From assembly GCA_949840935.1 (NCBI GenBank), contig CATKXX010000013.1, positions 1 to 64,000 of the forward strand: a DNA stretch of 64,000 nucleotides. Direction: 5' to 3'. Of the stretch, positions 37,422-59,900 are shown one piece after another (position 1 is the first letter of the stretch; the number at the start of each line of letters is the position of its first letter). The DNA is from an uncultured Acetatifactor sp. (GTDB taxonomy: Bacteria; Bacillota; Clostridia; Lachnospirales; Lachnospiraceae). The position numbers were made by a program, and so were the translations under genes. The notes beneath the pieces were generated by a model that was not told the DNA's origin, ran no database searches, and saw nothing but the letters and a program-made list of their open reading frames with translations.

Positions 37422-38462
37422 ATGATCAGGATAGCTGTTGCAGATGAGGATCAGGAATATCTGGATCGTTTAGCCGGTGTACTGGAGGAATATAAGGATT
37501 TGTCATTGGCTGTCTATACAGACAGAAGCAGCCTGGAGACTGCGTTGAATTCCAGGCCCTTTGACATATTGCTGTTTGACGCTTGCTTATATGACGGGCA
37601 GCACGTTTTGAAGAAAAATACTCTTGCGGTGATGCTTTTTGACGAGGAGAAGGCTGTGTCGGCGTCCTTTCAGGATTTCCCTAAGATCAACAAATTCCAG
37701 CGGATCGGTAATATTTATAAACAGATGCTGGAGCTGTATTCTGAAATCTGCCAGGATGCAGGGGAGATTATGGGGCGGAGACCAGTGGTATCGGTGGCGT
37801 TTTATTCCCCGGCGGGGGGAAGCGGTAAGACGACACTGGCGCTGGTGGCGGCTTCCAGGCTTGCAATGAGGGGACACAAGACTTTCTATCTTAACTTTGA
37901 AGACATCGCTTCGGAGGAATGTTACCTGCCCCAGAGCGGGGAGAAGGGCGTCAGCGAGCTGATAGGATTCCTCGGTTCTGAGATTAATTTTCCCATGAAG
38001 CTTCAGAGCCTTCTGCAGGCCAGGTCGGATAACCTGTATTATTTAAAGCATTTCGACAGCCCTAATGACATCTACGAGATGACGGCTCAGGAGGTGGGCG
38101 AGCTTCTCACGGAGATCGGCCGATCCGGACTTTTTGAATACATCATTGTGGATATGGGGGTGGCGCTGGACAGTAAGGCGCTGAGCATTTTTGAGCAGAT
38201 GCAGAAGATTGTCCTGGTGGAAAAACCGGACACCATTGCCATACATAAAATGAAATGTTTTACAGGTCAGACACATATTATGAATATGCATGGCCAGAAG
38301 ATGGTAAGGGTATTGAATTTTGATAATGGCCGGCGGATGGAGGACGGCGGCCAGATTCCCCTGGCGGGAAGAGTGGGAGCGGTACAGAACCCGGATTCCG
38401 CGCAGCTGATCACCATGCTGGCGGGAAATGCGGGTGTCAACTTTGTGGATGCGTTAGTGTGA
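37422..38462 (+). CDS. tadZ: Pilus assembly ATPase TadZ/CpaE-like
   Basis: ParA/MinD-related protein that localises the Tad secretion machine. Residues 1-110 resemble a degenerate receiver domain ('VADEDQEYLDRLAGVL', 'FDILLFDACLYDG'); a P-loop ATPase follows with 'SPAGGSGKTTLAL' near residue 131, lacking the signature lysine at the start of the ParA loop (Ala instead). 346 aa, soluble. First gene of the operon; the stop codon overlaps the next GTG start. Confidence 0.87.
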   Translation: MIRIAVADEDQEYLDRLAGVLEEYKDLSLAVYTDRSSLETALNSRPFDILLFDACLYDGQHVLKKNTLAVMLFDEEKAVSASFQDFPKINKFQRIGNIYKQMLELYSEICQDAGEIMGRRPVVSVAFYSPAGGSGKTTLALVAASRLAMRGHKTFYLNFEDIASEECYLPQSGEKGVSELIGFLGSEINFPMKLQSLLQARSDNLYYLKHFDSPNDIYEMTAQEVGELLTEIGRSGLFEYIIVDMGVALDSKALSIFEQMQKIVLVEKPDTIAIHKMKCFTGQTHIMNMHGQKMVRVLNFDNGRRMEDGGQIPLAGRVGAVQNPDSAQLITMLAGNAGVNFVDALV

Positions 38463-39793
38463 AGAAAAACGGCAAAGTGAGGCATTGTGAGATTCCGCGG
38501 AGCGGGATCGTGGGGGTTGACATGAAAGACTATTTTACAGAAGAAACAGTCAGGATCCGCGGGATGATCAGCAGGGATCCTTCCTATACGGAGCTGGAGG
38601 ATTTCGAGCTGAAGGAACGGGCCGAGAAGATGATGGAGCTTCGCATCAGGCAGGCGGAGGAGGCGGAGCCTGATGTGGCGGCATATTATTCCTCCCTGTC
38701 CTTCCGTACGCGAAAGAGCCTGGTGGAAAATGTGTTTGAATCCATCAGGGGATTGGGAATCCTGGGAAAGATCATTTCAGATAAAAGTATCACAGAAGTC
38801 ATGATCAATGGGTATGATACCATTTTCGTGGAGCGGAACGGTAAGCTGGAGCAGATTCCGGAGAAGTTTGAAAGCCAGGAGCGTCTTCGGAACATTATCA
38901 CAAAATTTGTGCAGGATATGGGCCGTTCGGTGACTGAGAGCAATCCCATTGTAGACACCCGCCTGGAGGATGGCTCCCGCGTAAATGTAGTCCTGGATCC
39001 CATTGCCTTAAACGGGCCCATTGTCACAATCCGAAGGTTTCCGGAGGAGGGGATGACGATTCAGAAGCTGATCGGCTATGGTTCCATCACTTCTGAGGCG
39101 GCAGCCTTTCTACAGAAGCTGGTACGGGCGAAATATAACATCTTTATCAGCGGAGGAACCGGTTCCGGGAAGACTACTTTCCTGAATGCCCTTTCCAACT
39201 ATATCCCTCAGACGGAGCGCGTCATTACCATCGAGGATTCCGCAGAGCTGCAGATCCGCCACATACCGAATCTGGTAAGGCTGGAGACGCGTAATGCCAA
39301 CTCATCGGGGGAGGGAGGGATTTCCATGAGGGATCTGATCAAGTCCTCCCTCCGTATGAGGCCGGAGCGCATTGTGGTGGGCGAGGTCAGAGGTGAGGAG
39401 GCGCTGGACATGCTTCAGGCTATGAATACCGGACACGATGGCTCCATCTCCACCGGCCACGCCAATTCGGCGGAGGATATGATAAGCCGTCTGGAGACCA
39501 TGGTGCTGAGCGGTGCGGCGGGGCTTCCTCTGGAGGCCATCAGGCAGCAGATTGCTTCCGCGGTGGACATCATCATACATCTATCCCGTATGAGGGACAG
39601 CTCCCGTAAGACCATGTCCATATCGGAAGTGGTGGGGCTGGAGGGAGGAAAGGTTATCATGAATCCCCTGTTTGAATTTCAGGAGGATGAGAAGACTACG
39701 GTCCGCAGGGTGTCAGGATCTCTGAACCGGACGGGGAATAAAATGGTTCATCCCGATAAGTTTATTGCCAGCGGGATATACGACTATTTATAG
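38459..39793 (+). CDS. cpaF: Pilus assembly/secretion ATPase CpaF/TadA
   Basis: Type II/IV secretion-family hexameric ATPase that powers Flp pilus extension. N-terminal domain, then Walker A 'GGTGSGKTTF' (about residue 233), the 'ITIEDSAELQI' Asp box, 'EVRGEEALDMLQAMNTGHDGS' Walker B region and the His box 'STGHANSAEDMISRLETMV'. GTG 38459 overlaps the tadZ stop as GTGA; ATG 38521 behind GGGGG is an alternative start giving about 424 aa. All motifs intact. Confidence 0.93.
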   Translation: MKKNGKVRHCEIPRSGIVGVDMKDYFTEETVRIRGMISRDPSYTELEDFELKERAEKMMELRIRQAEEAEPDVAAYYSSLSFRTRKSLVENVFESIRGLGILGKIISDKSITEVMINGYDTIFVERNGKLEQIPEKFESQERLRNIITKFVQDMGRSVTESNPIVDTRLEDGSRVNVVLDPIALNGPIVTIRRFPEEGMTIQKLIGYGSITSEAAAFLQKLVRAKYNIFISGGTGSGKTTFLNALSNYIPQTERVITIEDSAELQIRHIPNLVRLETRNANSSGEGGISMRDLIKSSLRMRPERIVVGEVRGEEALDMLQAMNTGHDGSISTGHANSAEDMISRLETMVLSGAAGLPLEAIRQQIASAVDIIIHLSRMRDSSRKTMSISEVVGLEGGKVIMNPLFEFQEDEKTTVRRVSGSLNRTGNKMVHPDKFIASGIYDYL

Positions 39794-39817: not shown

Positions 39818-39856
39818 TAGCATTGAATTACGCGGAAGCACACGGGAGGTATGGAA

Positions 39857-40615: not shown

Positions 40616-40617
40616 GG

Positions 40618-40636: not shown

Positions 40637-40675
40637 ACGTAAGGTGGAAGGTCACAAAGCGGGGTGTGTAGACCA

Positions 40676-40729: not shown

Positions 40730-40746
40730 AGAGGTATGGTATCGGG

Positions 40747-41793: not shown

Positions 41794-41856
41794 TGTTCAT
41801 GTCCGCCGGATTGATAATAGATTACTGATTTTCAGGTGAGTGAGGAGGTGAGATAA

Positions 41857-42102: not shown

Positions 42103-42157
42103 CTGAGAAGGAAGAATTGTTGTTATGGCGGGAGAAACGAACAGAGGAGGCATAGGG

Positions 42158-45497: not shown

Positions 45498-45530
45498 CGG
45501 GAATCGCGGCGGAGCGAGGGAGGCGGTAAT

Positions 45531-46535
45531 TTGAGCGGCAATTTCATACAGGGCTTTGCCGGGAGATCATGTCCCGGCGGAGGAACGGAATATGCGGAAC
45601 GGAATCGGTCTGCGGAGGGGCGGATGCAGTCTGTGGGATGGAAGCGGCTTGCGGGCCGAAGGGAAAGCGGGATGATTGTGGTGGAGACGGTAATCTCCTT
45701 TACGGTGTTCCTGGTCACCATTTTTTCCATTGCATACTTTATTAACATGCTGATCCTGCACAATAAGATTCAGTTTGCCATCAACTCGGCGGCCCATGAG
45801 CTGGCCAGCTATACTTATCTGTACGCGGCCTTTGGAGGGCGGAGCGCGGAAATAGCCATCCGAAATGACGGGGCGGCGAATACGGGGATGATTGACAATG
45901 CGGTCAGCTCCGGGTACAGCAGCTATCAGAAGGTGATACAGGCCAAGGGAAGCGTGGAATCTGCGGCAGGAGAGGTCGTGGGTGTCCTGGGCGGGCTCCA
46001 GGGCTTTGACCAGGGAGACGTTGATACCGGAGGTATGGATCTGGAAGGGCTGTCACAGCAGCTGGAAAGCATGGCAGGTGCCGTGGAAAATGCCGGACAG
46101 GATGTGAAGGACGCCTATGGACAGATTAAGGATACGGCCAGCCAGATCAAGGGCCTGATGCAGAATAAGGAAGGCGTGATCAGCGGCATGGCGTATATCG
46201 CCCTGGAAGGGGCGGAGTATGGGACGAAAAACCTGCTGGGCACGGGAGCCGCGTGGCTGATGACAAAGGGGTATCTGAAACAGGGAAATCTCAGCGCGGA
46301 TGCTTATTTACAAAGCTACGGCGTGGTGAAAGGCTATGGGGGGCTGGATTTTTCCGGCACAACTATTTTCTGTGACGATGATTTCCGCATGATAGATATT
46401 GTGGTGGAGTATGATGTGGAGCCGGGGTTCGTCCGCCTCATTCTCCCGAAAGACGTAAAGCTCCATATGGTAAACAGGGTGACGATACCGGCATGGCTTG
46501 ACGGCGACGGGGTCAAACCAGAGCCCGGGAAATAG
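45531..46535 (+). CDS. Second TadE-like pilus protein
   Basis: 334 aa from TTG 45531 (GGGAGGCGG upstream) or about 303 aa from ATG 45624 (GGAGGGG three bases upstream, rather tight). After a basic leader comes 'RRESGMIVVETVISFTVFLVTIFSIAYFI', again Gly + hydrophobic helix with Glu, then an Ala/Gly/Gln-rich helical middle and a beta-rich C-terminal part. Probably another surface pseudopilin. The stop codon runs into the first copy of the hairpin element at 46534-46608. Confidence 0.75.
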   Translation: MSGNFIQGFAGRSCPGGGTEYAERNRSAEGRMQSVGWKRLAGRRESGMIVVETVISFTVFLVTIFSIAYFINMLILHNKIQFAINSAAHELASYTYLYAAFGGRSAEIAIRNDGAANTGMIDNAVSSGYSSYQKVIQAKGSVESAAGEVVGVLGGLQGFDQGDVDTGGMDLEGLSQQLESMAGAVENAGQDVKDAYGQIKDTASQIKGLMQNKEGVISGMAYIALEGAEYGTKNLLGTGAAWLMTKGYLKQGNLSADAYLQSYGVVKGYGGLDFSGTTIFCDDDFRMIDIVVEYDVEPGFVRLILPKDVKLHMVNRVTIPAWLDGDGVKPEPGK

Positions 46536-46608
46536 TGTGAAAAAGAGCATTTCACAATCCTGATTTGAGTGCCCGCCAAAGCGGGCATATGGGAGTTAGT
46601 GTGAAAAG
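46534..46608 (+). ncRNA. Structured intergenic element, copy 1
   Basis: From the upstream stop codon: TGTGAAA-loop-TTTCACA hairpin, the conserved string ATCCTGATTTGAGT, a GCCCGC-CAAA-GCGGGC hairpin, then ATATGGGAGTTAGTGTGAAA. The last TGTGAAA can also pair with the earlier TTTCACA, so two folds exclude each other. GGGAG just before GTG 46601 looks like a ribosome site. A second copy with a different GC hairpin but matching loops is at 50391-50455. Could be a regulatory RNA or a mobile intergenic repeat. Confidence 0.55.
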
Positions 46609-46636
46609 AAGTGGGATGCAGGAGGTATCCTCATGA
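46601..46636 (+). CDS. Possible 11-residue leader peptide
   Basis: GTG 46601, five bases after GGGAG, opens a frame of 11 codons ending TGA at 46634-46636, which overlaps the ATG of the prepilin peptidase as ATGA. The product would read MKRSGMQEVSS. Such an overlap would couple peptidase translation to the leader. It may equally be incidental, since the peptidase has its own AGGAGGT at 46620-46626. Confidence 0.35.
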   Translation: MKRSGMQEVSS

Positions 46637-47301
46637 ATATGATCAGTGGAGTGTTGGGGGCATTCATCCTTTTCATTCTGTATTATGCGGCGGCGGGGCT
46701 GCTGGAAAAGAAACTGTCCCTGCAATTACCCGGGCGAAAGGTGCTCTTTCTGGAAAAATGCATTACGGATCCCTTTGTCCTGGGCGTGGGGATTCTGACC
46801 TTTGCAGCCTGGTGTTACCTGGGAAGCAGGGAGGGCGCTTATCAGAATATCTTTGAGACGCTGCAGAGTATGATCCTCCTCCTGGCAGTGAGCCTCTTTG
46901 CGGTTACGGACGCAAAGGCGAAACGGATCCCCAACTTCCTGGTGCTGTTGTTCCTGGCGCTGTGGCCTGTGGTGAGCGTGGGGGCCATGCTGCGCGATTT
47001 CGGGGAAGGGCTGGCCCTGACCGGCCAGTCCCTGATTGGCGGTGCGGCAGGAGGGCTTATTTTCCTTATGTGCTACCTCCTGTCCAGAGGGCAGCTGGGG
47101 GCCGGGGATGTGAAGCTTGCCTTTGTGATGGGGCTGTATCTCACGGGGCAGAGGATCGTGGGGGCCATAGCATACGGTGTGTTGTTATGTTGTGTCTATT
47201 CTTTGATACAGATGGCCCGGAAAAAGCTGACGATGAGAGACGGCGTCCCTCTGGCACCTTTCCTGTATCTGGGGACGCTGATCACTTTTCTGCTGTTATA
47301 A
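46633..47301 (+). CDS. A24 prepilin peptidase (TadV/CpaA type)
   Basis: Membrane aspartic protease that would cut the Flp pilin and TadE-like leaders. 222 aa, six or more hydrophobic helices, with the two catalytic aspartates in 'VTDAKAKRIPN' (about residue 93) and 'GAGDVKLAF' (about residue 157). The cysteine-rich N-terminal domain of full-length PilD-type enzymes is missing; a protein consisting of such a domain is encoded separately at 51168-51641. ATG 46633 follows AGGAGGT by six bases. Confidence 0.9.
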   Translation: MNMISGVLGAFILFILYYAAAGLLEKKLSLQLPGRKVLFLEKCITDPFVLGVGILTFAAWCYLGSREGAYQNIFETLQSMILLLAVSLFAVTDAKAKRIPNFLVLLFLALWPVVSVGAMLRDFGEGLALTGQSLIGGAAGGLIFLMCYLLSRGQLGAGDVKLAFVMGLYLTGQRIVGAIAYGVLLCCVYSLIQMARKKLTMRDGVPLAPFLYLGTLITFLLL

Positions 47302-47320: not shown

Positions 47321-48646
47321 ATGAGTGGAGTGAAAACGAAGCAATGGATGGTGGTCATTGTACTGCTGCTGCTGATCGGCACAGGATGGTATCTGTCCGT
47401 CAGGGCAGCCAGCGGCGTTGACAACCGGAATGCACAGGAAGAACTGGTGCGGCGGGCGGACGCCTTTGCGGGAAAGGAATTGTATGTCCGGGCGGTTCCG
47501 CTTTACAGGGAGGCGCTGGGATATCGCACGGAGGAAGTCCCCCGGATCGAGGAGAAGCTGCTGCAGGTCTATCTGGCCCAGGAGGATACGGATTCTTACC
47601 TGGCGCTTGTGGAGAAAAGGAGCGCTGACAGGACGGCGTCGGAGCAGGAATATCTCCGGGCGGCGGAAATCTATCTGGCTCAGAACGACCTTGCGGAAGC
47701 TATGGCATTGCTGAAAAAAGGCATGGAAGCGTATCCCGGCGGCCCTGTGGGCGAGCTGTATGAAGACAACCGCTACGGATATTCCATGCGCGTCACGAAA
47801 GCGGTGGAGATCATGCCCACGCCGGAAAACAGCCTGATGCCCGCCTTTGACGGCAGCAAGTGGGGATACATAAATGCTGTCGGGAAGTTTGTCCTCCCCG
47901 CAGCCTATGATACGGCGGTGCCCTTTAACAGCAGAGGTTATACGGTGGTCTCCATGGATGGCACTTATTATACCCTTCTGAAAACAGGTGAAAAATACGG
48001 GGTGGATGAGACCCATGTGACGGATGTCCGTGGGATCAATAATGCATATATCATTGCTCAGCATAACGGGAAGTATGGCTTTTATACCGGGGATTTCGTG
48101 TGTGCGCTTCCGGAAATGCAGTTTGACGAAGTGACCATGAATTCCTGCGGGGTCTTCGCGGCGAAAAACGGCGGCCGCTGGGCTGTGATCCGTGAGAACG
48201 GGGAGGCGGCCACGGATTATATTTACGAGGATGTGGCGGTCAATTCCCTGCGCCAGGCGTTCGCGGGCAACCTGGCCATGATGAAAAGCGACGGGCTGTG
48301 GTATCTCGTCGATGTGGAGGGGAACAGGGTATGTGACACCGGGTTTTCGGACGCCAGGGCGCCGGAGTCCGGCAATTACATTGCGGTGGCAAATGAGAAA
48401 GGGAAATGGGGCTTTATTGACAGGAGCGGCCAGCTGGTCATTGACTATCAGTATGACGACGCATGGTCCTTTTCCAATCATCTGGCGGCTGTCAGGATCG
48501 TGGATACCTGGGGGTATATCAGCGAGAGGAACGAGCTGGTGATCGCGGAGCCTCTGGAGAACGCCATGCCTTTTCACAATTATTCCGCCCAGGCTTCGTT
48601 CCAGGGCAATGGGGCGCTGATCACGTTGGAATACAAGGTGGAGTAA
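47321..48646 (+). CDS. Membrane-anchored WG-repeat protein
   Basis: 441 aa. One N-terminal transmembrane helix (residues 7-25), a helical tetratricopeptide-like segment (about 35-150, 'VPLYREALGY', 'YLRAAEIYLAQNDLAEAM'), then six WG-type beta repeats: 'WGYINAVGKFVLP', 'YGFYTGDFV', 'WAVIRENGEAA', 'WYLVDVEGNRV', 'WGFIDRSGQLVI', 'WGYISERNELVI'. Faces outward. WG repeats have no fixed function; binding is inferred. Located 20 bases after the prepilin peptidase and before the FHA protein, so part of the same unit. Confidence 0.85.
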   Translation: MSGVKTKQWMVVIVLLLLIGTGWYLSVRAASGVDNRNAQEELVRRADAFAGKELYVRAVPLYREALGYRTEEVPRIEEKLLQVYLAQEDTDSYLALVEKRSADRTASEQEYLRAAEIYLAQNDLAEAMALLKKGMEAYPGGPVGELYEDNRYGYSMRVTKAVEIMPTPENSLMPAFDGSKWGYINAVGKFVLPAAYDTAVPFNSRGYTVVSMDGTYYTLLKTGEKYGVDETHVTDVRGINNAYIIAQHNGKYGFYTGDFVCALPEMQFDEVTMNSCGVFAAKNGGRWAVIRENGEAATDYIYEDVAVNSLRQAFAGNLAMMKSDGLWYLVDVEGNRVCDTGFSDARAPESGNYIAVANEKGKWGFIDRSGQLVIDYQYDDAWSFSNHLAAVRIVDTWGYISERNELVIAEPLENAMPFHNYSAQASFQGNGALITLEYKVE

Positions 48647-48688
48647 GGCCGTATGGCCCAGGAATTTCCATTACGAGGAGAATGAGAG

Positions 48689-50395
48689 ATGAACAGCGAA
48701 AAATTTGTGTTGCAGAATTCTTTGGAAGCGAATTATCTGAACATCCGGCTGGAAGCGGATGACAGGCTGGATGAGACTGCGGTGAAGGTGATCCGGCAGG
48801 ACTGTCCTGATTTTCTGATTCCCTTCCGCATAGTGTCGGTCAATGAGGAGACAGACCTGAAGTACAGGCTGATCAATACGGTGGCGTTGGAATATGCGGA
48901 GATGACGCTGCCAAAAGTCTTGTTTGTACAATTGTATCTGAATCTGCTGGAGCCCTTTGTAAAGGGAAAGGACTGGTTCCTGGATTATCACAACTTCTGT
49001 GTGGACACCCGGTATGTATATGTGGACAAGCATACCTATCAGGTATTCTATCTCTATGTGCCTGTACATTCCTTTCGCAGCACGGATCAGGAAATACTGG
49101 ATTTCTTTCAAAATGTGTTCATGAATATCATGATCAGCGACGACAAGGATTTCCAGGTCAGGCTGTTCCGCTTCTTTGGGGGCGGCCATGTCACGCTGGC
49201 AGGGCTGTACCGGCTGATGATGGAGGAAAAGGAATCTTCGGCGTCCCGGGTACAGCCTGGGATGCCGCAGCTTTCGGAGCCCCGGCCTGGGCCGCAGTCT
49301 GTGTTCCAGCAGCCTGTGGCATCGCCGACTGGGCCTCAGTCCATGCTCCAACAGCCTGTGCCATCGCCGACTGGGCCTCAGTCCATGTTCCAACAGCCTG
49401 TGGCATCGCCGACTGGGCCCCAGCCTGCTTTTCAACAGCCTGTGCCATCGCCGACCGGGCCCCAGCCTGCTTTCCAACAGCCTGTGCCATCGCCGACCGG
49501 GCCCCAGTCTGCTTTTCAACAGCCTGTGCCATCGCCGACTGCGTCTCAGTCCATGTTCCGGCAGCCGGCGGAGCCCTGGCCCGTAAAGCCTGGGGAAGAG
49601 AAAGCCGGGGTGCAGGGCAGGAAGAAGGAAAAGAAGCAGGCCCAGGAGAAGGCCCCGGTGCCCATGCCGCCGACGGGGGCCGCTTACGGAGAAGATAACA
49701 GCGACGATGAGGTAGTGCAGGCGCTGTTTGGCAGCAATAAGAAAGGCAGGAAGGAAAAGCCCTCGGCAGAGAGCAAAAAGGCGGAAAAGGAACAAAACAG
49801 GAAAAGGCAGGATGAGAAAGGCCACGGCGGCCTGGGAGGGCTGTTTGGCGGTAAAAAGAAGCAGAAGAACGATCCGGCGGGGGGACAGGGCCCCGAGCAG
49901 GGTGCGCAGCTTATCGGCTCCGCTCCTTTCCCTGCCGGACAGTCCCAGGTGCCCTATGGGAACAATCCGCCTGCAGCGGTGGATTATGCCTCCCTGTATG
50001 GCAGGGGCGGTTTTGGCGCGGATGAGACGGAGGTACTTGCTGAAGATGATGTGGCGGCAGGTGTTCCCTGGCTGGAGCTGATTGATTATTCCCAGCCGGG
50101 TGCGCCGCAGAAAATTGAGTTAAACTTTGCAAAGCCCTATATTACGATCGGGCGCATGTCTTCGGACGAGAAGATTCCTGATGTGGCCTTTCCGGGAGAA
50201 TTCAAGCGTATTGGAAGGCAGCATGCGCGCATAGAGCGCAGGGGCAGTGATTTCTTTGTAATCGACCTGGGCTCCGCGAACCATACGATGGTGAACGGGC
50301 AGGTGCTGGCACCGAACCAGCCGTACCGGCTTCAGGACGGGATGGAGCTTGCTTTTACCGTCAGCAGGCCTGTGCGCTACAGGGTACATATGTGA
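48689..50395 (+). CDS. DUF6382-FHA domain protein
   Basis: 568 aa, no membrane helix. Residues 1-180 match the DUF6382 type domain found in clostridial FHA proteins ('KYRLINTVALEYAEM', 'FYLYVPVHSF'). Residues 207-290 are six exact-length 14-residue repeats of the 'QQPVPSPTGPQSMF' kind, then a Lys-rich linker. The C-terminal FHA domain (about 480-565) has 'ITIGRMSS', 'IGRQHARIE' and 'SANHTMVNG', the Gly-Arg, Ser/His and Asn residues that bind phosphothreonine. It is a likely reader of the nearby kinase. The stop codon runs into the second hairpin element. Confidence 0.9.
   Translation: MNSEKFVLQNSLEANYLNIRLEADDRLDETAVKVIRQDCPDFLIPFRIVSVNEETDLKYRLINTVALEYAEMTLPKVLFVQLYLNLLEPFVKGKDWFLDYHNFCVDTRYVYVDKHTYQVFYLYVPVHSFRSTDQEILDFFQNVFMNIMISDDKDFQVRLFRFFGGGHVTLAGLYRLMMEEKESSASRVQPGMPQLSEPRPGPQSVFQQPVASPTGPQSMLQQPVPSPTGPQSMFQQPVASPTGPQPAFQQPVPSPTGPQPAFQQPVPSPTGPQSAFQQPVPSPTASQSMFRQPAEPWPVKPGEEKAGVQGRKKEKKQAQEKAPVPMPPTGAAYGEDNSDDEVVQALFGSNKKGRKEKPSAESKKAEKEQNRKRQDEKGHGGLGGLFGGKKKQKNDPAGGQGPEQGAQLIGSAPFPAGQSQVPYGNNPPAAVDYASLYGRGGFGADETEVLAEDDVAAGVPWLELIDYSQPGAPQKIELNFAKPYITIGRMSSDEKIPDVAFPGEFKRIGRQHARIERRGSDFFVIDLGSANHTMVNGQVLAPNQPYRLQDGMELAFTVSRPVRYRVHM
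49307..49558 (+). repeat. Six 42-bp in-frame repeats in the FHA gene
   Basis: Six consecutive 42-base units encode a Pro/Gln/Ser-rich 14-residue motif. Units 4 and 5 are nearly identical in DNA, pointing to recent duplication. The period keeps the frame, so unit number could vary between strains and change linker length. Confidence 0.9.
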
Positions 50396-50455
50396 AAAGG
50401 GTTTCATCCTGATTTGAGTTGCGGCAGGCCGCGACATGGGGGTAAGTGTGAAGAT
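50391..50455 (+). ncRNA. Structured intergenic element, copy 2
   Basis: Homologous to 46534-46608: TGAAA-AGGG-TTTCA, then ATCCTGATTTGAGT, a GCGGC/GCCGC hairpin, then ACATGGGGGTAAGTGTGAAG. Loop strings are conserved while the GC hairpin is replaced by a different but still pairing one, the pattern expected for a structured RNA. It spans from the FHA stop to GTG 50448, the phosphatase start. Confidence 0.55.
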
Positions 50456-51176
50456 AAGGGGCGGCAGTGCGTCGGATATTGGCAGTGTCAGGGAGGTCAA
50501 TCAGGACGCGGTATGTTATCGGTATTTTAAGCAGGGAAAAGAGGCGCTTGCGCTGTGCGCCGTATGCGATGGCGTCGGAGGGCTGGAGCATGGTGAAATG
50601 GCTTCCACGTTCCTCGTACAGCGTATGGAAGAATGGTTTGAGGAAGTGATATCATGGCTCGTCATCTTGGAGACGGATACGGAGATTTTGTTTTCCCACC
50701 TGAAGGACGCCGTTGAGTGCTGGAATGAGGAATTGTGCCAATATTGCCGGAGGGAAAATCTGAAAACAGGCTCTACCTTGTCGTTGCTGCTCCTGGTAAG
50801 GCACAGATCGTATATTGTTCATGTAGGCGACAGCAGAGTCTACCGGTATCGGGGAGGCGTGCTGGAACAATTGACCGTGGATGACAGTGTGGCGCGGCTG
50901 AAGACGGGACAGATGAGAAGCTATCTCAACAATTATATGGGAAAACAGACGCCGCTGTGGTTTCAGGCGCTGGAGGGGACTGCGGATAAGGGGGATGTAT
51001 TCGTGGTCTGCTCGGACGGGTTCTATCATCATCTGACAGGGCCTGACCTGGAGGCTGTCCGAGGGAAACACTGGAAAAGAAATCCTGACGAGATCTGCGG
51101 CAGGATGATCCGGGCCATGATGGAACGGGGGGAGAGGGATAATATCTCTGTCTGCGCGGTTGAGGTGTCAGACTAG
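50448..51176 (+). CDS. PP2C-family phosphatase, second copy
   Basis: About 242 aa. Divergent PP2C with 'SVREVNQDA', 'AVCDGVGGLEHGEMAS', 'VHVGDSRVYRYRGG', 'CSDGFYHHLTG' and 'RGERDNISVCAVEV'. The metal-binding aspartates (DGVGG, SDG, RDN) are all present, so activity is expected. Start: GTG 50448 is four bases after GGGGGT, a layout shared with the other hairpin element; ATG 50436 in the same frame lacks a ribosome site. It should reverse the action of the kinase at 52237. Convergent with, and overlapping by nine bases, the minus-strand gene at 51168. Confidence 0.9.
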   Translation: MKIRGGSASDIGSVREVNQDAVCYRYFKQGKEALALCAVCDGVGGLEHGEMASTFLVQRMEEWFEEVISWLVILETDTEILFSHLKDAVECWNEELCQYCRRENLKTGSTLSLLLLVRHRSYIVHVGDSRVYRYRGGVLEQLTVDDSVARLKTGQMRSYLNNYMGKQTPLWFQALEGTADKGDVFVVCSDGFYHHLTGPDLEAVRGKHWKRNPDEICGRMIRAMMERGERDNISVCAVEVSD

Positions 51177-51641
51177 GGTGTGGAAGTAAAAGAGGACGCC
51201 CACCAGCGAAAAATTCACCGTATTCCCCAGGAAGGAAAACAGCAGGCCCTTTGCCAGCTCACGCCCCCGCTTTCCGCGGTGCAGGACACATCCCAGCTTT
51301 ACGGACTCATAGAAAATCACACAGAGGATCCAGATAAACGGCCGGAAATCCGTTATGGCGGCGGCCAGGATAAAGACGGTGGTGAAAAGGAGCTCCAGGA
51401 TAAAGTTGCCCGGGGCAATGGCGTGCCCGCAGCTTCTGCATCTGCCGCGGCTGAACAGATAGGAGAAAATGGGAATCTGCTGGCGCAGGGTCAATTTACA
51501 GCCGCAGGATTCGCAGAAACAGTCGCTGTTTCCCACGGAGACCGGATGACCCTTCAACAGCCGGAGTATATCTGTGGTTGCGTATGCGCCGACGACGTAA
51601 AAGGCCATACATATCACGATTTCTATTGATGATTGCAACAT
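51168..51641 (-). CDS. Stand-alone A24 N-terminal cysteine domain protein
   Basis: About 157 aa with three or four hydrophobic helices and the motif 'CESCGCKLTLRQQIPIFSYLFSRGRCRSCG', the two CxxC pairs of the DiS_P_DiS N-terminal domain of type IV prepilin peptidases. The catalytic aspartates and the rest of the peptidase are absent, so it is not a protease by itself. ATG 51641 follows GGGGGG on the minus strand; the frame is open to 51701. It may complement the domain-less TadV-type peptidase at 46633, or be a relic. The only minus-strand gene within this block. Confidence 0.8.
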   Translation of the reverse strand: MLQSSIEIVICMAFYVVGAYATTDILRLLKGHPVSVGNSDCFCESCGCKLTLRQQIPIFSYLFSRGRCRSCGHAIAPGNFILELLFTTVFILAAAITDFRPFIWILCVIFYESVKLGCVLHRGKRGRELAKGLLFSFLGNTVNFSLVGVLFYFHTLV

Positions 51642-51839
51642 AGGAAATCCCCCCAGGCTTTTGATTTCCACGGGCATGAGCAAAGCGGATGCGGCCAGCA
51701 TCCATTTGACAAATGCCGCGAGGCTGTTGCCTTATTATATCTGAGCCAGGACAGAAAGTAAAGGATTATCTCCTGTTGAACAAAAATGCGTGCTCGACAG
51801 GATACAGGAATGCGCGTCGCGGCGCCGGAGGACAGAAAG

Positions 51840-52004
51840 ATGAATTTATCGGTCAGTGAATGGCTGTTGTACGGAGGGATTGGGATTATGGCGGCTGCCG
51901 CCGTCATTGTGGCGGCAGGTGTCGCAGCCTTTACGCTTACAGGGCGGAAGCTCGGGAGGAAGCTGGAGGAAGAATATGGAAAGCCTTCCATCGGCCGGAA
52001 TTGA
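51840..52004 (+). CDS. 54-residue single-pass membrane protein
   Basis: ATG 51840 lies eight bases after GGAGG. The product has a short 'MNLSVSEWLLY' lead, one transmembrane helix (about residues 12-33, Ala/Gly/Ile/Val-rich) and a basic then polar tail. Unrecognised family. Position between the PP2C/FHA genes and the membrane kinase suggests an accessory or regulatory peptide of that module. Its last codons lie within the first unit of a tandem repeat array. Confidence 0.6.
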   Translation: MNLSVSEWLLYGGIGIMAAAAVIVAAGVAAFTLTGRKLGRKLEEEYGKPSIGRN

Positions 52005-52122
52005 CGTGTCTGCCCGGAAGGATATGGAAAGCTTTCTGCCGGTTGAAAATGGCGGGTCTGCCCGTGAAGGGTTATGGGAAGCTTTCCGCCGATTGAAAAT
52101 GGCGTGTCTGCCCGTGAAGATC
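51976..52122 (+). repeat. Three imperfect ~50-bp tandem repeats
   Basis: Units starting at 51976, 52024 and 52074 share ATGGRAAGCTTTC.GCCG, TTGAAAATGGCG and GTCTGCCCGTGAAG. Spacings are 48 and 50, so no single frame is kept. The array overlaps the end of the 54-residue gene and fills the spacer before the kinase gene. Confidence 0.8.
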
Positions 52123-52236
52123 CGGCAGAGGGAGATTTTGCAGGAAGAATAGTATAGACTTTCGGAATCCCTGCCGAAAGGGCAGGCGCAGGGGAGATTT
52201 CGGAAGGCTGTTATTATGACAGGGAGGAAACGGAAG

Positions 52237-55200
52237 ATGTCGCAGATTGTTGCGGGGATGTATGAAATAGACCGGCAGATTGGAGCCGGGGGCGGCGGGG
52301 TCGTGTACCTGGGGCGCCACATCAGGCTGGAGAAACAGGTGGTGCTCAAGGCGGATAAGCGGAGGCTTTCCACGGCCAGGGAGGCTCTGCGCCGTGAAGT
52401 GGATCTGCTCAAAGGGCTGAGCCAGACTTATATTCCCCAGGTCTATGATTTTGTCCAGGAAGACGGCGTTGTCTACACGGTTATGGACTATATCGACGGG
52501 GAAAGCCTGGATAAGCTGTTGGCCAGGGGACAGCGGCCTGCTCAGCCGCAGGTCATAAGGTGGGCCTGCCAGCTTCTGGAGGCGCTCTGCTATCTTCATG
52601 GCACGCCGCCCCACGGGATCCTGCATGGTGATATCAAGCCTGCAAATATCATGTTGCGGACAAACGGGGATATCTGTCTGATTGATTACAATATCGCGCT
52701 GGCGCTGGGGGAGGACGGGGCTGTTAAGGTGGGCTTCAGCCGGGGATATGCCTCACCGGAGCACTATGGGGCGGACTATATCAGCGCCAACAGGCCTGCC
52801 GCAGTGGGAACGCTCACAGGGATAAGGACGGCGGGGCTGCCCAGGCGGGGAAAGACACAGGATGAACCGGACAGCCGCGATAAGGAGGGTGTAAGAAGAA
52901 AGCAGGCGGAATCGGAAGCCACTCAGGTGGAATCGGAAGCCACCCAGGTGGAACCGGATGTGTTCCGGGCAGAATCGGAAGCTACCCGGGTGGAACCGGA
53001 TGTGTTCCGGGCAGAATCGGAAGCTACCCGGGCGGAATCGGAAGCCACCCAGACGGAATCGGATGCGCCTCAGGGGAATCCTGATGCTACTCAGGTGGAT
53101 CCGGAGGTGACGCTGGCGGATGTGAACGGGGAGATGAGCCGCGGGAATAAGACATCGGCGGATTCTTCCGCTTCCACGTCGGGCCGCAGCCAGAGGGGGA
53201 TCCTACTGGATGCCCGCTCCGATATTTACAGCCTGGGCGCTACCCTTTACCATCTGTTGTCGGGAAGGAAGCCGGCCCAGGACGCCCGTGAGGTCATACC
53301 CCTGGGGCCGGATGTGTGCAGCCCGGCGGTGGCGGATATCGTTAAAAAGGCTATGGCTCCCGAGCCGGAGATGCGCTATCAGACAGCGGAAGACATGCTG
53401 GCTGATTTTCTGATGCTGCATAAAAGGGACAGGAGAATCCTGCGCCATAAGAGACGGGAAATGATATTTGCGGCGTCCATGGCGGCTGCCTTTCTGGCGG
53501 GAGGGGCCAGCGCCTTTACGGGGCTGAAGCAGCTGGAACAGCGGCAGACGGCGCTTGCCTGTGCGGAATATTCCGCCAATGCTCTGGCGGAGGGAAATGT
53601 CTCGGAGGCCCTGCGTCAGGCGCTTCTGGCAATTCCTGCCGGAAACAGTATATTCAATGCCCCGGTGACAGCGCAGGCGCAGAGAGCGCTGACGGACGCC
53701 CTGGGGGTCTATGACCTGTCGGGGGGCTTCGAGGCGGTGGATGCAGTGGAAATCCCTGGTGCCCCTTTTAAGATCGTAATGTCCCCGGAGGGAACCTGTT
53801 TTGCCGTTGTGTATGCATATGAAGCCGCTGTGTATGATGCCGGGACGCTGGAGAGAAGGGCGGTGCTTCCTGTTCTGGAATCTGCCCTTTCGGATGTGGT
53901 GTTCCCGGAGGAAGGAATCCTTGTCTTTGCCGGAGAAGAAGGGGTATCCGCTTATGACCTGGATAAGGAACAGTTCCTCTGGAAGAAGGACAGGGCTACC
54001 TTTCTGACGCTTTCCGGGGACGGTAAATGTGTTGCCGCGGTGAACCGGGATGAGGACAGGGCGGTGGTCTACAGGGTGTCGGACGGGGAAATATTGTATG
54101 AGCGTTCCTTTGAGGGAGAGCATATGCGGGTGGCGGCCAACGATATCTTTGCGGATCCCGGGGACAACATCTTTGCCTTGAATGAAGACGGAAGCCTGCT
54201 GGCAGTGAGCTTTTCCGACGGAGGGCTCATCATCCATGATCTGGAAGATCCGGCGGAGGATCTGATCGTTTATGACGCTTCCGATTATGCCCATTTTGAG
54301 GGCGGTTTCTGTGGGAAATATTTTGCCTATGCCGCCAGCGCGGGTTCCGGTTCTGTGTTTGGCATTGTGGATACCAGAGAAGGGAGCCTGGCAGGGGAGG
54401 CTCTGTCGCAAAGCCCTTGCCTGCTGAAGGCCGGCAGGGAGGGCTTTTATCTGGCCAATGAAAATCTGCTGGTGAGAGTGAATCCGGAGACGCTGGAACA
54501 GATGGAGCTGGCTTATACGGACAGCGTGAACATCACGGGCTTTGCAGTGGACGGGGACTATGTCCTTTTGGCCACAGAGGACAATGGCTTTTCCTTTTAT
54601 GATGGAGGGGCGCACCGGATGTCCTCGGAGCAGTGCCGGGAAAACTGTGATTTTACGGAGCTCTCCCAGGGGCTGGCCGTGATCGGGAATCGGAATGAGC
54701 CGTCCTTAAGGGTGATGAGGCTGGAGGATCACAGGGAGTCGCTGCTTGCCTCCTACGATCCCAGGTACGTCCATGACGAGGCGCGGATCAGTGCGGACGG
54801 GAAGACGGCCATGCTGTTTGGATATCAGGATTTTGCCATTTATGATATGGCAGGCACATTGATCAAAAGCTGCGAGCTGCCGGATGCGGACAGGATTTAC
54901 GATCAGCAGTTTCGGAAAAGCGGGGAAGAATCCTTTCTGGAGGTCATCTGGTATGACGGGACAGTGCGCTGTTACAGCGCTTCTGACGGCACTATGATCT
55001 CAGAGACAAAGGGGGAGGCCCCGGCAAAGGACTTGTATGAGGAATTTTACACCGACAGATACCGCGTTGTCTCATCCCTGCACAGCGCCCCGGAGGTATA
55101 TGACCTGCAGTCGGGGAAGCTGGTGGCTGTGCTGGAGGAGGACTCCTATCTGACTTATGTGACGCAGCTGGAGGGGAATCTTCTGACGGAATATGTCAGC

Positions 55201-55380
55201 GCGTCGGGGGACAGGTACGGGCTGCTTCTGGATGAAGATTTCGGGACGACGGCGTATCTGCCCGGGCTCTGTGACGTGACGGAGGGCGGCTTTGTGTTTG
55301 ACGACGGCGCGGGAAAGCTGCGATACTGCAGGAGATATTCGCTGCAGGAGCTGGTTGGGATGGCGGAGGCAGGGCTGTAG
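52237..55380 (+). CDS. Membrane Ser/Thr kinase with propeller-like sensor
   Basis: 1047 aa. Kinase lobes in residues 5-180 and 320-395: 'GAGGGGVVYLG', Lys in 'VVLKADKRR', 'HGDIKPANIML' (HGD instead of HRD), Asp in 'LIDYNIA' (DYN instead of DFG), 'GYASPEHYG' and 'DARSDIYSLGATLYHLLSG'. Between the last two lies a 140-residue insertion holding ten 7-residue repeats (residues 225-294). A transmembrane helix (about 408-430) leads to an outer region of about 600 residues made of WD40/PQQ-like strands, probably a beta-propeller sensor. ATG 52237 follows GGGAGG; ATG 52216 is less likely. Key catalytic residues are present, so it is probably active. Distinct from PrkC; no PASTA. Confidence 0.9.
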   Translation: MSQIVAGMYEIDRQIGAGGGGVVYLGRHIRLEKQVVLKADKRRLSTAREALRREVDLLKGLSQTYIPQVYDFVQEDGVVYTVMDYIDGESLDKLLARGQRPAQPQVIRWACQLLEALCYLHGTPPHGILHGDIKPANIMLRTNGDICLIDYNIALALGEDGAVKVGFSRGYASPEHYGADYISANRPAAVGTLTGIRTAGLPRRGKTQDEPDSRDKEGVRRKQAESEATQVESEATQVEPDVFRAESEATRVEPDVFRAESEATRAESEATQTESDAPQGNPDATQVDPEVTLADVNGEMSRGNKTSADSSASTSGRSQRGILLDARSDIYSLGATLYHLLSGRKPAQDAREVIPLGPDVCSPAVADIVKKAMAPEPEMRYQTAEDMLADFLMLHKRDRRILRHKRREMIFAASMAAAFLAGGASAFTGLKQLEQRQTALACAEYSANALAEGNVSEALRQALLAIPAGNSIFNAPVTAQAQRALTDALGVYDLSGGFEAVDAVEIPGAPFKIVMSPEGTCFAVVYAYEAAVYDAGTLERRAVLPVLESALSDVVFPEEGILVFAGEEGVSAYDLDKEQFLWKKDRATFLTLSGDGKCVAAVNRDEDRAVVYRVSDGEILYERSFEGEHMRVAANDIFADPGDNIFALNEDGSLLAVSFSDGGLIIHDLEDPAEDLIVYDASDYAHFEGGFCGKYFAYAASAGSGSVFGIVDTREGSLAGEALSQSPCLLKAGREGFYLANENLLVRVNPETLEQMELAYTDSVNITGFAVDGDYVLLATEDNGFSFYDGGAHRMSSEQCRENCDFTELSQGLAVIGNRNEPSLRVMRLEDHRESLLASYDPRYVHDEARISADGKTAMLFGYQDFAIYDMAGTLIKSCELPDADRIYDQQFRKSGEESFLEVIWYDGTVRCYSASDGTMISETKGEAPAKDLYEEFYTDRYRVVSSLHSAPEVYDLQSGKLVAVLEEDSYLTYVTQLEGNLLTEYVSASGDRYGLLLDEDFGTTAYLPGLCDVTEGGFVFDDGAGKLRYCRRYSLQELVGMAEAGL
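52909..53118 (+). repeat. Ten 21-bp in-frame repeats inside the kinase domain
   Basis: Ten consecutive 21-base units encode heptapeptides of the forms ESEATQV, EPDVFRA, ESEATRA and degenerate relatives. They lie in the insertion after the kinase 'SPE' motif. Several units are identical in DNA, suggesting recent expansion. Confidence 0.9.
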
Positions 55381-55531: not shown

Positions 55532-55603
55532 ACCTACATAGCCTTGATATACTATTTACATGCTCTTGATATAGGAATAGGACTCAGAAATAACATATAC
55601 AGA

Positions 55604-56410
55604 ATGGAATCGAATATTTTGCAGACAAGTACAGAACAGCAGTTACTTATTCAACAGATGAATGTTATAGATGATATGTTTTTCCAAAAAATTGCAGAAG
55701 ACAAAGATGTCTGTGAAGAAATATTACGAATTATCCTCCAAAAACCAAAGCTGAGAGTAATTGAGTCACAGACACAGCGTTTCCTCCGTAATATTGGAGC
55801 ACATTCCGTGATACTTGATTTGCTTTGCGAGGATGAGAATGGTGCCAGGATTAATGTGGAGATGCAAAAGTCTGATGATGATGACCATGTACGGCGTGTC
55901 CGATTCAACAGTTCTAACATCGACACGACTTTTACAGAAAAAGGACTGGATTATAAAGACTTCCCTGATATCTATGTGATATTTATCTCCAAGTTTGATA
56001 TGTTTCAGGAAAACAAAACAATCTACCATTTGGAAACTATCATTAAGGAGACCGGGACATCTGTTGAAGATGGAATACATCGGATATTTGTAAACTGCAC
56101 TGTAGATGACGGATCCGATATTGCTGAATTGATGCAATATTTCAAAAACAGCACAGGCCAAAACAGTAAGTTTCCCAAACTGTCAAACCGGGTGAAATAT
56201 TTCAAGGAATCAAAGGAAGGAGCTGACGCCATGACACAGATTGTTGAAGAATATGCAAGCAAAAAGGTTCTTGAGCGGGATAAAGAAACCGCAAAATCAC
56301 TTTTACAGAACGGAGTACCTGCAGATGTGGTAATAAAATCCATCCCGACTATTTCAATAGAGTTTATCGAAAAATTACACAGACAGCTCGCAACAGTAGA
56401 AAAGCAATAA
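55604..56410 (+). CDS. Rpn/PD-(D/E)XK nuclease family putative transposase
   Basis: 268 aa from ATG 55604. N-terminal 'DDMFFQKIAEDKDVCEEILRIIL' and core 'ILDLLCEDENGARINVEMQKSD' carry the D...ExQ pattern of the PD-(D/E)XK fold; then 'YVIFISKFDMF', and a C-terminal helix set ending 'SIEFIEKLHRQLA'. The family (Rpn / PDDEXK transposase) includes RecA-independent recombination-promoting nucleases and is often multicopy. Codons are A/T-rich compared with flanking genes, indicating transfer. The ribosome site is weak. It may be an active mobile gene; no terminal inverted repeats were recognised. Confidence 0.83.
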   Translation: MESNILQTSTEQQLLIQQMNVIDDMFFQKIAEDKDVCEEILRIILQKPKLRVIESQTQRFLRNIGAHSVILDLLCEDENGARINVEMQKSDDDDHVRRVRFNSSNIDTTFTEKGLDYKDFPDIYVIFISKFDMFQENKTIYHLETIIKETGTSVEDGIHRIFVNCTVDDGSDIAELMQYFKNSTGQNSKFPKLSNRVKYFKESKEGADAMTQIVEEYASKKVLERDKETAKSLLQNGVPADVVIKSIPTISIEFIEKLHRQLATVEKQ

Positions 56411-56868: not shown

Positions 56869-56939
56869 TGTAAAATGTAAGAAATATTGTAACTATATGG
56901 TTTTAAATTGTATTCACAGTAGAAAGGAGATTGAAACAA

Positions 56940-59900
56940 ATGAAATGGAAACCGATGAAAAGCGGGTTGGCGCTGATACTGGCAGCAGTATTGGCAATCC
57001 CAACCCTGCCGGCGAGAGCGGAGGAGGCGGCTTCTGCAGATGCTTCTCCCATGGCCGGAGTATCGGAGACTTCCGCTGAGGAGGTAATCTTCAACACAGG
57101 AAACGGAAATGTGACTGTTGCTGACGGAAGCGTATCTGGAAATGATGCTGCAGATGTTTACTTTGAGTCAGATGGAAGCTACACGATCCCTACAGGGCTG
57201 GTTGGGTTGAACGCTTTTTTCCCTTATGAAGTGCAGTTTACCTGTAATGGGGAGACCACGAAAGAGTGGTTCCTGACTCCCGATGATTCCGTGGAGGTGG
57301 GAGGGCATACCTTCTATGTGGAGGCTGTCGCTGACGGCAGTGCGGTGACGCAAATCAGCCTTGAGGTAGGCGGCGATACCGTGGCAGTGTACCCGGAGGA
57401 GAAAGAATTTGCGGATCAGAAGCTTGATATGGCGTCTCCCCTTACCCTTCTTCCCATCAAAGAGGTGAGGCTTGGTTCTGTCGATCTGACTTCCTATACG
57501 CCGGTGGAATTGACCCAGGTGTCTGTAAAAGCGCTTTTGGGAGACAAAGTGGCGGACGGGGACACGATCGCATGGAGGAACAGGTATACCGATGGTGACT
57601 ATGAGGTCAGCCAGGCGGGGGATAAGGTGAATCTGAGTGTGAACACCTATTATGGGTCTTCTCAGGAGCTGGAGATGATCGTGGGCTCCGGTAATCAGCT
57701 GGATGCCGATGCAGTCCGCTATCTGATGTCCTTGAGGATAAAGGAATCCAGAAAGTGGCTGCTTCCCGCTATTTATATGCAGGATGGGCAGGGTATCCGC
57801 ACAGCGCTTCCCACGGTGGAAAGTTCCACGCGTTATTCTGATTACCGTGCAGAGAGGGAGATGGCTGTCTGCGCAGGTTCCAGTACGGTAGGTACCGTTA
57901 CAGAGGCATACGTCAGCCTGAAGGTAAATCCTGATGTATTCCCGGGAAGTTATCAGCTGAGGGCATTTGAGGGCAATTATACGTCGGCGGAGGAAGCCAT
58001 GGCGGCTGCGGAGATTACGGACAGGATTTTCTGTACGGATATGACACAGGCCAATGCAGGATATTTGCTGCCGCGCCATACCAGCGGCACACCGGATAAA
58101 TGGATCACAGTGGTGTCCTTTGACGGAAGTGGGAATGTAACGGGCTGTCTGTCCTTTTTGTTGGAACTCAGCACCAGCGGAATTTCAATGTATCCTGAGT
58201 ATGCGTTGAGATATAAGACGGAATCCGGTACAATGTCTCCGGATGTAACGCGGGGCAGAAGTACCAGTTACAACTCCGAGGAAAATTGCAACTATTATAC
58301 TTATACCCTGGCGTCAGGCAATGCGGCGGATAAGGTATATTATCAGAGGTTTTTATTTAGCGTAGACGGAACCAGCAGCCCTGATTCCATCACAGGGGCA
58401 TATGTGGGACTTTATGATTCCATTGCGGAAGCTGCGGCAGCAGGTGCGGCGGATATCAAGGGAGACCTTTTTGGCACGAGCGGCTATGGGGCTGATTACA
58501 GTCAGGGCGTCTGCTTTACGATTTTCTATGGTGCGGATGGTGCTCCGGATCAGAGGGTATGGAGGTATGGCATCAAGACGGTAGAGGCGTCAGTGCCCTC
58601 AACACCTACACCTCTGAACAGCGGTGTACAGTTGTTTATTAACGGGTTCCAGAAAGAAGATAAGACATCTGTTAACTATTATCAAGTAAGACAGTCGGAG
58701 GATTCCTATGGGGAATACAATTTCCTGACCTTTATCGTGGACAAGGATGTTACCGATGAAGAATTAAAGAACCTGGCTCCTGTGTTCACTGTTTCTGCCG
58801 GGGCTAAGCTTTATACCGCAGGTGGCAGCGCGGAGGAAATCAGTGGGGAAAGCTATCATGATTTCACCAGCCCCGTACTGTATACGGTATCCGCTGAAAA
58901 CGGGGAAAATGCTAAGAATTACTGGATTCAGGTGCTGCGTGCCACAGAAGGTGCCGGACAGTTATTCATTAACAGCCTGGTGGATCCCAACGCAGAAACC
59001 CATGTGGGCGAAGACGGCGTGATCTATTCCACCAGAGAGGTGATGCTGGACAGCTACCATGATGATATCCATGATATCCTGCTTGCCAATATGGGTACGG
59101 AAGCGATAGAGAAACTGTCCGTGGAGCTGGAGTCCGATACGGTGGAGCTTCATGGATACTGGACATTGGACGGGCAGGAAGATATGCTGGGATTTGTGGA
59201 TCTTATGGGCTATCAACCCGCCGGAGACGGATCCATATCCGGGGCGGGAGGTTCCCATGGTTCCTATGCCAGCTATGGAGAATTATGGAACCTGGCAAAG
59301 GTACGCCTGATCGCCAAAGAGGGAGTGGCTGCCGGTACGGATGTAAACGGTACCCTGACGATCAAGTCGGGGGATAAAGTACTGATCGTACTGACACTGA
59401 CCGGTACGGTGGGCGACCCGACCATTATCACACAGGAGATTCCTGAGACGGTGCTGTATGTCCCTTATGGCACCATGATTCAGAACAGCAATAAGTACAG
59501 CTGGAATAAAGTAAGCTATACGTTGGAGAGCGGCACGCTGCCTTCGGGCATGGTTGTAAAGCCCAATGGCGAGATTTACGGCGTGCCCAGGGAAATGGGA
59601 GAATTTACCCTTACGGTGCGCATGGACAACAGCTATGCAGGTTTTGACAGCAGTTCCAAGACATATACGCTGGTCATCAATGAAAATACGGATGCCAATG
59701 TAGATGCGGCTACGGATACGGGATATGAGCTTTCCCAGCGTGTACAGAATATTGATATGGGGTCGTTTACTTCTGGCCCCTCTCCTTCCCAGATGTTGGT
59801 GTCACAGGGAGTTCTTGACGAGTTTGTGGATATCTATCTGGATGGTGTGAAATTGACGGAGGGTCAGGATTATGAGGCTGAATCCGGAAGCACCAGGATT

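Follow-up and report, generated by a model that had tools for sequence, protein, structure and literature searches.

The first 64,000 nucleotides of contig CATKXX010000013.1 (assembly GCA_949840935.1, uncultured Acetatifactor sp., family Lachnospiraceae), here called the window, carry a Tad pilus locus followed by genes for an FHA-domain protein, a PP2C-type phosphatase and a membrane Ser/Thr kinase. With more confidence than doubt, we read this as a second, kinase-equipped Tad lineage, in which a portable sensor-kinase cassette is plugged in beside the machine's own DUF6382-FHA adaptor and PP2C and acts as an FHA-coupled phospho-switch. The cassette comprises a one-helix protein, a propeller Ser/Thr kinase as its middle gene and a wall-anchored Ig-like protein; it is not specific to Tad, also adjoins type VII secretion system (T7SS) genes and, on phylogenetic trees, has been repeatedly exchanged between Tad and T7SS loci. 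Directly supported are the gene content and its conservation, the exchange of the cassette on the trees, the machine-bound adaptors, the intact catalytic residues of the kinase, its Thr-rich acidic loop and a conserved linker Thr of the adaptor.

One cassette beside two kinds of machine

The best 80 of at least 536 relatives of the window kinase from genome contigs were kept as 79 loci, which by record title come from Lachnospiraceae, Oscillospiraceae and other Clostridia, with one metagenome-assembled genome (MAG) titled Alistipes; L189 is from a cultured commensal, Sporofaciens musculi. A locus was labelled Tad when at least two of CpaF, TadB, TadC, TadG and TadE were matched, and T7SS when EssC or WXG was matched. 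Among these best-scoring relatives, 44 kinases have Tad genes as neighbours and 14 have T7SS genes, whereas 21 adjoin neither machine and none adjoins both; for the 57 loci with at least 8 kb upstream, the figures are 37, 10 and 10 for Tad, T7SS and neither, respectively. Three of the 14 T7SS labels were given on WXG matches alone (L187, L191, L210) and four on EssC without WXG (L171, L176, L206, L211).

On the tree of 83 kinases (63 labelled, 49 Tad and 14 T7SS; the broken kinase of L212 was dropped by length), the machine label needs 13 changes, compared with a mean of 12.8 in shuffles, 364-372 of 500 shuffles being as low; the starred branches of this tree force at least 11 label changes. 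Trees of the nearest genes were built from those loci in which such a gene was detected at the set length (PP2C 44, FHA 48 and Ig-like 46 of 58 labelled loci); long branches occur for the FHA protein of L138 and for several FHA, PP2C and Ig-like rows. The FHA and PP2C trees need 3 changes each versus 8.5 (FHA) and 8.3-8.4 (PP2C) in shuffles, none of 500 shuffles being as low, and the Ig-like tree behaves like that of the kinase (9 changes versus 10, 139-159 of 500 as low). A single clade of T7SS kinases is rejected by the approximately unbiased (AU) test (p-AU 4e-55, 46 loci). FHA and PP2C follow the machine, while the label on the kinase is scattered about as in shuffles.

One pair of close relatives carries the same cassette beside different machines. 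Starting at the ATG of the one-helix gene, L210 and L219 share DNA of 95% identity, which covers the kinase and Ig-like genes and resumes past a short stretch that does not align; upstream of the ATG there is no alignment, L210 having T7SS (WXG genes) and L219 Tad. Each of the two genomes, both MAGs, holds one cassette. The L219 genome has a CpaF 66% identical to that of the window on the cassette contig and no WXG100; the L210 genome, with less than 6 kb upstream of the cassette, has five WXG100 genes, all on the cassette contig, and two CpaF fragments of unsettled type on other contigs. Downstream of the Ig-like gene, L208, L219 and L210 have another pair of PP2C and kinase genes.

The adaptor belongs to the machine. 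Of 150 genomes sampled across the family (149 genera), 146 gave a DUF6382 match, and stretches of up to 20 kb around 100 of the matches listed were searched with local hidden Markov models (HMMs) from window proteins. Four stretches are of the window's kind (L044, L056, L067, L120), and the other 96 are ordinary loci, with CpaF in 90, a TadC HMM match in 91 and TadG in 95. Tad genes are present in 95 of 96; the remaining one is L106, whose contig stops right upstream of the FHA gene. A kinase or PP2C gene was found in 0 of the 96 stretches, even when a separate PASTA kinase of the window (10711-12825) and the second PP2C beside it (together 9931-12825) were used as queries. The FHA adaptor is thus a normal Tad gene in the family, to which the kinase-phosphatase pair is an addition. 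On the CpaF tree, the kinase-linked CpaFs lie on one side of a branch that separates 7 from 85 sequences (Shimodaira-Hasegawa-like approximate likelihood ratio test (SH-aLRT) 99).

The kinase itself occurs in 11 of the same 150 genomes, ten times full-length (at least 1246 bits) and once cut (G092); besides fragments in G105, the other matches listed reach at most 300 bits. Seven of the 11 are beside Tad (the window, L056, L067, L120, L134, L135 and L136), two beside T7SS (G105, as L162, and G070, as L191) and two on contigs that end too near (G058, G092). The link with Tad drawn by a first-pass annotation of the window is, by these counts, a conserved one, and the outcome that would have told against it, the set lying mostly apart from tad genes in related genomes, was not found. 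Chance adjacency of the genes is excluded, since the same order recurs in other genomes of the family and in the named relatives. Among the 66 loci with 5 kb upstream, an FHA gene lies within 6 kb in 52 and a PP2C gene within 5 kb in 43; near other kinases (e.g. L222, L174, L158) no FHA or PP2C gene was detected, so some cassettes may stand alone. Nothing resembling a recurrent third machine was seen by eye in the ORFs (open reading frames) of 10 of the 21 'neither' loci, no further search having been made. Judging from L221, with one CpaF and a TadZ match, and from L160 and L186, with A24 (in L160 also TadE), part of the 'neither' group probably consists of truncated or rearranged Tad loci.

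The lower-scoring kinases include those of L140, L144 and L143. That of L140 has C-terminal TPRs, in a locus with WXG100 and an FtsK-type ATPase bearing FHA, and a kinase of L144 lies in a locus with WXG100. L143 is a Tad locus with WG, FHA and PP2C genes, whose FHA protein is nearest to that of the window in the FHA tree and whose kinase has C-terminal TPRs, which suggests an outer-domain swap. No Ig-like partner was detected in seven loci, L139-L145, among them TPR-kinase loci such as L143.

Gene layout of the window and parts of the predicted switch

Domain calls are profile matches (E values) on the ORF products of the window. All five genes placed by the first-pass annotation after the prepilin peptidase (WG, FHA, PP2C, mini membrane protein, membrane kinase) are where it put them; it had overlooked the minus-strand A24_N gene, the Thr-rich loop in the kinase domain and the secreted partner gene at 56931-60458, outside its range. 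The features are as follows:

37422..38462, plus strand: TadZ-like protein with an atypical receiver domain and a P-loop (TadZ-like_ARD, E 7.9e-09)
38459..39793, plus strand: CpaF/TadA ATPase of the kinase-linked Tad clade (T2SSE, E 1.2e-58)
39851-40615 and 40747-41793, plus strand: platform proteins TadB and TadC, respectively (weak T2SSF matches, slightly below cut-off)
41857-42102, plus strand: Flp-like pilin (archaellin/type IV pilin N-terminus, E 1.7e-05)
42125-42832 and 45531-46535, plus strand: TadE-like genes (no Pfam match; named from position and a local HMM)
42780-45497, plus strand: TadG/DUF5702 protein (DUF5702, E 2.8e-20)
46633-47301, plus strand: prepilin peptidase, catalytic domain only (Peptidase_A24, E 1.4e-10; no A24_N match)
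47321-48646, plus strand: TPR and WG-repeat protein (WG_beta_rep, E 1.4e-28)
48689-50395, plus strand: DUF6382-FHA adaptor (FHA, E 4.6e-15; DUF6382, E 5.4e-10)
Parts of the adaptor: DUF6382, 48716-49147; repeat-rich linker with 42-bp repeats, 49287-49566; linker Thr447, codon 50027; FHA domain, 50141-50356
50436-51176, plus strand: PP2C-type phosphatase (PP2C_2, E 3.3e-15; Stp1-like, E 3.3e-36, under the cut-off of that model)
51168-51701, minus strand: stand-alone A24_N protein (prepilin peptidase N-domain; A24_N, E 3.7e-16), between the PP2C and one-helix genes
51786-52004, plus strand: one-helix membrane protein with a C-terminal EYG motif, cassette gene 1 (no family match above cut-off)
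51968..52119, plus strand: tandem repeat with a 50-bp unit, lying across the end of the one-helix gene and in the gap that precedes the kinase
52216-55380, plus strand: membrane Ser/Thr kinase, cassette gene 2 (Pkinase, E 3.5e-33)
Parts of the kinase: disordered Thr-rich loop built of repeats, within the kinase domain, 52771-53208 (residues 186-331); outer part with the propeller, about 53725-55335
55544-56410: PD-(D/E)XK transposase-family gene, between the kinase and Ig-like partner genes
56931-60458, plus strand: secreted Ig-like protein with a LysM wall anchor, cassette gene 3 (LysM, E 2.4e-29; He_PIG, E 3.2e-06; CBM_X2 under cut-off)

The catalytic Lys, Glu, Asp and Asn and the metal Asp of an active Ser/Thr kinase are all present (Lys45, Glu61, Asp139, Asn144, Asp157), invariant in 10 kinases and again in 25, and activity is predicted from them; the DFG motif is replaced by D[YF]N (Asn for Gly). 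PASTA repeats gave no match in the window kinase (52216-55380), unlike in the PASTA kinases PrkC/Stk1. The outer domain had been called propeller-like in the first-pass annotation, as an AlphaFold2 model and a Foldseek comparison with the PDB confirm; two propellers may be read in the model. The loop could be delimited in 78 of 84 kinases, the flanking motifs being unmatched in the six excluded ones. It contains 11.6% Thr versus 5.0% elsewhere, with acidic surroundings of the Thr, and is disordered in the AlphaFold2 model; the acidic-Thr pattern is found in 63 of the 78 loops, compared with 39.8 in shuffles (maximum 49). T-x-hydrophobic-hydrophobic was unconvincing as a loop motif (25/78 versus 18.9 in shuffles, maximum 29).

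In the adaptors, a candidate phospho-Thr lies N-terminal to the FHA domain, as in GarA/OdhI: at the aligned linker position, 85 of the 96 ordinary Tad adaptors have a Thr, and the window adaptor has DETEVL. T-x-hydrophobic-hydrophobic is present in the linkers of 70/96 ordinary Tad adaptors (20.2 in shuffles), 7/9 kinase-linked ones (2.0, maximum 6) and 4/4 of the T7SS type (1.2, maximum 4). The FHA pocket of the window keeps the Arg of GR and the Asn of NG and has Gly in place of the Ser of SRxH; across 40 kinase-linked Tad adaptors, the counts are Arg 31, Ser 17, Gly 23 and Asn 37. In the ordinary Tad loci (within L032-L131), Lys stands for the usual Arg in 66 of 96 and Ser is kept in 77 of 96, in contrast to Arg in 31/40 and Ser in only 17/40 of the kinase-linked ones. 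A search for the FHA protein on viral contigs gave five pattern matches and, by tblastn, no relative, and a viral link was set aside.

Where the contig leaves room, the kinase is preceded by the one-helix gene in 67 of 74 loci and followed, at up to 2.5 kb, by an Ig-like homologue in 55 of 69 (34/40 Tad, 8/13 T7SS). All 68 one-helix homologues over 40 bits retain [YF]G in the tail. The Ig-like partner carries wall anchors, which change among loci; the rows that bear on its fold (VIA rows) cluster on residues 828-918. In the close relative L147, the kinase and Ig-like genes are 77 bases apart, compared with the inserted transposase-family gene in the window. Three tandem repeats are present in the window (42 bp, 49287-49566, adaptor linker; 50 bp, 51968-52119, before the kinase; 21 bp, 52903-53105, kinase loop), and their repeat number may vary between strains.

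The Tad gene set (37422-46535) lies upstream of the module described in the first-pass annotation and, with the prepilin peptidase, forms a Tad locus of 37422-47301 in which CpaF, TadZ, TadB/TadC, TadE/TadG, pilin and prepilin peptidase are all present. The pilin scores above the NCBIfam cut-off for the archaellin/type IV pilin N-terminus and below that of the Flp1 model. From the prepilin peptidase to PP2C, the intergenic gaps are 19, 42 and 40 bases. The TPR and WG-repeat protein is probably exported, to judge by eye from an N-terminal hydrophobic stretch, and has homologues in L056, L067 and L120. The prepilin peptidase looks split into the catalytic gene of the Tad operon (46633-47301, plus strand) and the antisense A24_N gene (51168-51701, minus strand); eight further loci (L146, L147, L148, L155, L163, L167, L170, L182) carry an antisense A24_N homologue no more than 1 kb before the kinase, and in L160 and L180 one on the plus strand precedes the kinase. 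The EssC/TseC ATPase and WXG100 proteins of the T7SSe machine gave 0 HMM matches among the window ORFs, to which the EssC search was confined, and no WXG100 was detected in the source genome (64% complete), which has one DUF6382 match, one close CpaF and two further CpaF matches 28-29% identical.

A proposed switch and its alternatives

The cassette and the adaptor could work together in the following manner: On the outer side, the propeller would register the condition of the wall-anchored partner (contact, or tension of wall or pilus). In the cytoplasm, the kinase would autophosphorylate its own Thr-rich loop, on which the FHA domain of the neighbouring machine may dock. The linker Thr of the adaptor would then be phosphorylated and captured by an FHA domain, by analogy with GarA/OdhI; this capture may start or stop the ATPase of the machine, and PP2C would reset the switch. 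A broader version, which we put forward tentatively, is that of a machine-agnostic, transferable contact-sensing cassette: propeller kinase and wall partner would license whichever machine, Tad or T7SS, supplies an FHA adaptor, with the coupling written in a fast-evolving acidic phospho-Thr array and new machines wired in through recombination at the one-helix start codon.

The first-pass annotation had pictured a phospho-switch dedicated to Tad, with TadZ or CpaF as a candidate phosphorylated partner. The switch itself gains from the invariant catalytic residues in 10 kinases and from the conserved linker Thr of the FHA proteins; its dedication to Tad is not supported, as DUF6382-FHA proteins sit in ordinary Tad loci without kinase or PP2C and the kinase sits beside T7SS genes in 14 of 79 loci. 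That kinase, FHA protein and PP2C co-evolved with the pilus and act on it only is, accordingly, quite unlikely in our estimate: the excess of Tad over T7SS loci (44 versus 14 of 79, and 7 versus 2 of 11 in the family sample), the single clade of kinase-linked CpaFs and a weak clustering of labels on kinase subsets speak for it, whereas the kinase lineage largely ignores the machine, and the kinase, FHA, PP2C and Ig-like trees weaken any Tad-only reading. The kinase could instead serve envelope stress or wall contact, with many targets among envelope genes or in transcription reached by routes other than FHA, the machines being passengers of a hot spot. The wall anchors of the partner, the cassettes near which no FHA or PP2C gene was detected and the 10 of 57 loci beside neither machine under the labelling rule would suit such a kinase; with 47 of those 57 adjoining a machine and FHA and PP2C genes near in 52 and 43 of 66 loci, we regard it as unlikely. 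Constitutive docking of the FHA domain on the kinase as a scaffold, with phosphorylation of minor importance, has a precedent in T7SSb, where the FHA domain of EssC docks on the EssB pseudokinase (PMC11217815), and would fit the D[YF]N motif and the Gly in the FHA pocket; against it stand the five invariant catalytic residues, the linked PP2C gene and the Thr enrichment of the loop, and we consider it very unlikely.

Several points weigh against the favoured reading of a portable cassette acting through the FHA adaptor. The switch is proposed from sequence, trees and structure models. The trees are quick ones, without a mixture model and with SH-aLRT alone, and most loci are MAG contigs. When the kinase tree is restricted to the loci of the FHA and PP2C trees, the label needs 7 changes versus 8.3-8.4 in shuffles (53-76 of 500 as low), and on the 46 Ig-like loci it needs 8 versus 10 (34-36 of 500); this weak clustering indicates that exchange is frequent and independence from the machine incomplete. 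Tad may be over-represented, since the 79 loci are the best-scoring of at least 536 relatives. Of the 66 loci with 5 kb upstream, 14 gave no FHA gene at up to 6 kb and 23 gave no PP2C gene at up to 5 kb. The acidic-Thr pattern was picked only after the sequences had been inspected, and the FHA pocket is, by its residues, non-canonical in this clade, the Ser of S-R-x-H being replaced by Gly in 23 of the 40 adaptors from kinase-linked Tad loci, that of the window among them.

If the portable-cassette reading is true, a single exchangeable sensor kinase governs two unrelated surface machines in gut Clostridia, and Tad pili and T7SS may therefore respond to the same outside cue. It would also offer a concrete way into the switching of Gram-positive Tad pili and of T7SSe. 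Close relatives with one cassette and different machines are a natural experiment for the coupling code between FHA domain and kinase. The linker Thr conserved in kinase-less Tad loci hints at phospho-control as a possibly general feature of Tad in the family.

Relation to known systems

In the type VI secretion system (T6SS), the membrane kinase PpkA, the PP2C phosphatase PppA and the FHA adaptor Fha1 control a secretion machine. The window shares this trio and differs in the machine, the cell envelope and the outer domain of the kinase; the likeness is one of analogy only. GarA/OdhI, small metabolic regulators acting with PknB/PknG, have a Thr motif N-terminal to the FHA domain, which docks on the activation loop of the kinase; the window adaptor shares the position of the Thr and instead has DUF6382 and belongs to a surface machine. 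The Kil system of Myxococcus is likewise a Tad-like, contact-dependent machine with several FHA proteins, and the words kinase and phosphatase are absent from the main text of its description, in the part consulted (PMC8460266).

The closest likeness is to T7SSe, which has the kinase TseD, the PPM phosphatase TseF, the DUF6382-FHA protein TseJ, the one-helix proteins TseH and TseK and the envelope protein TseI, whose relative TsdI carries Ig-like domains (Garrett et al. 2024, PMC11217815; this and what follows from that paper refer to the part consulted). The claim of the first-pass annotation that no system of this composition had been described has therefore to be given up: kinase, PPM phosphatase, DUF6382-FHA protein, one-helix protein and a large Ig-like envelope protein recur in the window, matched by domain content only, and the kinase family of the window also adjoins T7SS genes (14 of the 79 best-scoring relatives). 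Unlike in T7SSe, the machine of the window is a Tad pilus, with 0 EssC/WXG100 matches in its ORFs; for the machine exchange, the Thr-rich loop and the changing wall anchors, no counterpart was found in the T7SSe account (PMC11217815). The same paper draws an analogy with T6SS, includes a TPR kinase in T7SSj and places T7SSg and T7SSh next to Tad genes, shared regulation being raised by its authors as a possibility for T7SSg. There, T7SS and Tad stand side by side, in contrast to 0 of 79 loci with both machines here under the labelling rule; T7SSg is without a kinase, and for T7SSh the account names only a possible kinase-like protein, TshM, and no phosphatase or DUF6382-FHA protein (PMC11217815). 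A literature search, mostly without subscription papers or supplements, found no account of the cassette on Tad and, within the same scope, neither the machine exchange, the split between cassette and machine-bound adaptor nor the Thr-rich kinase loop in print. The composition is already known for T7SS; as far as that search goes, the additions are its occurrence beside Tad genes, the exchange from one machine to the other, the division into cassette and adaptor and the Thr-rich loop of the kinase.

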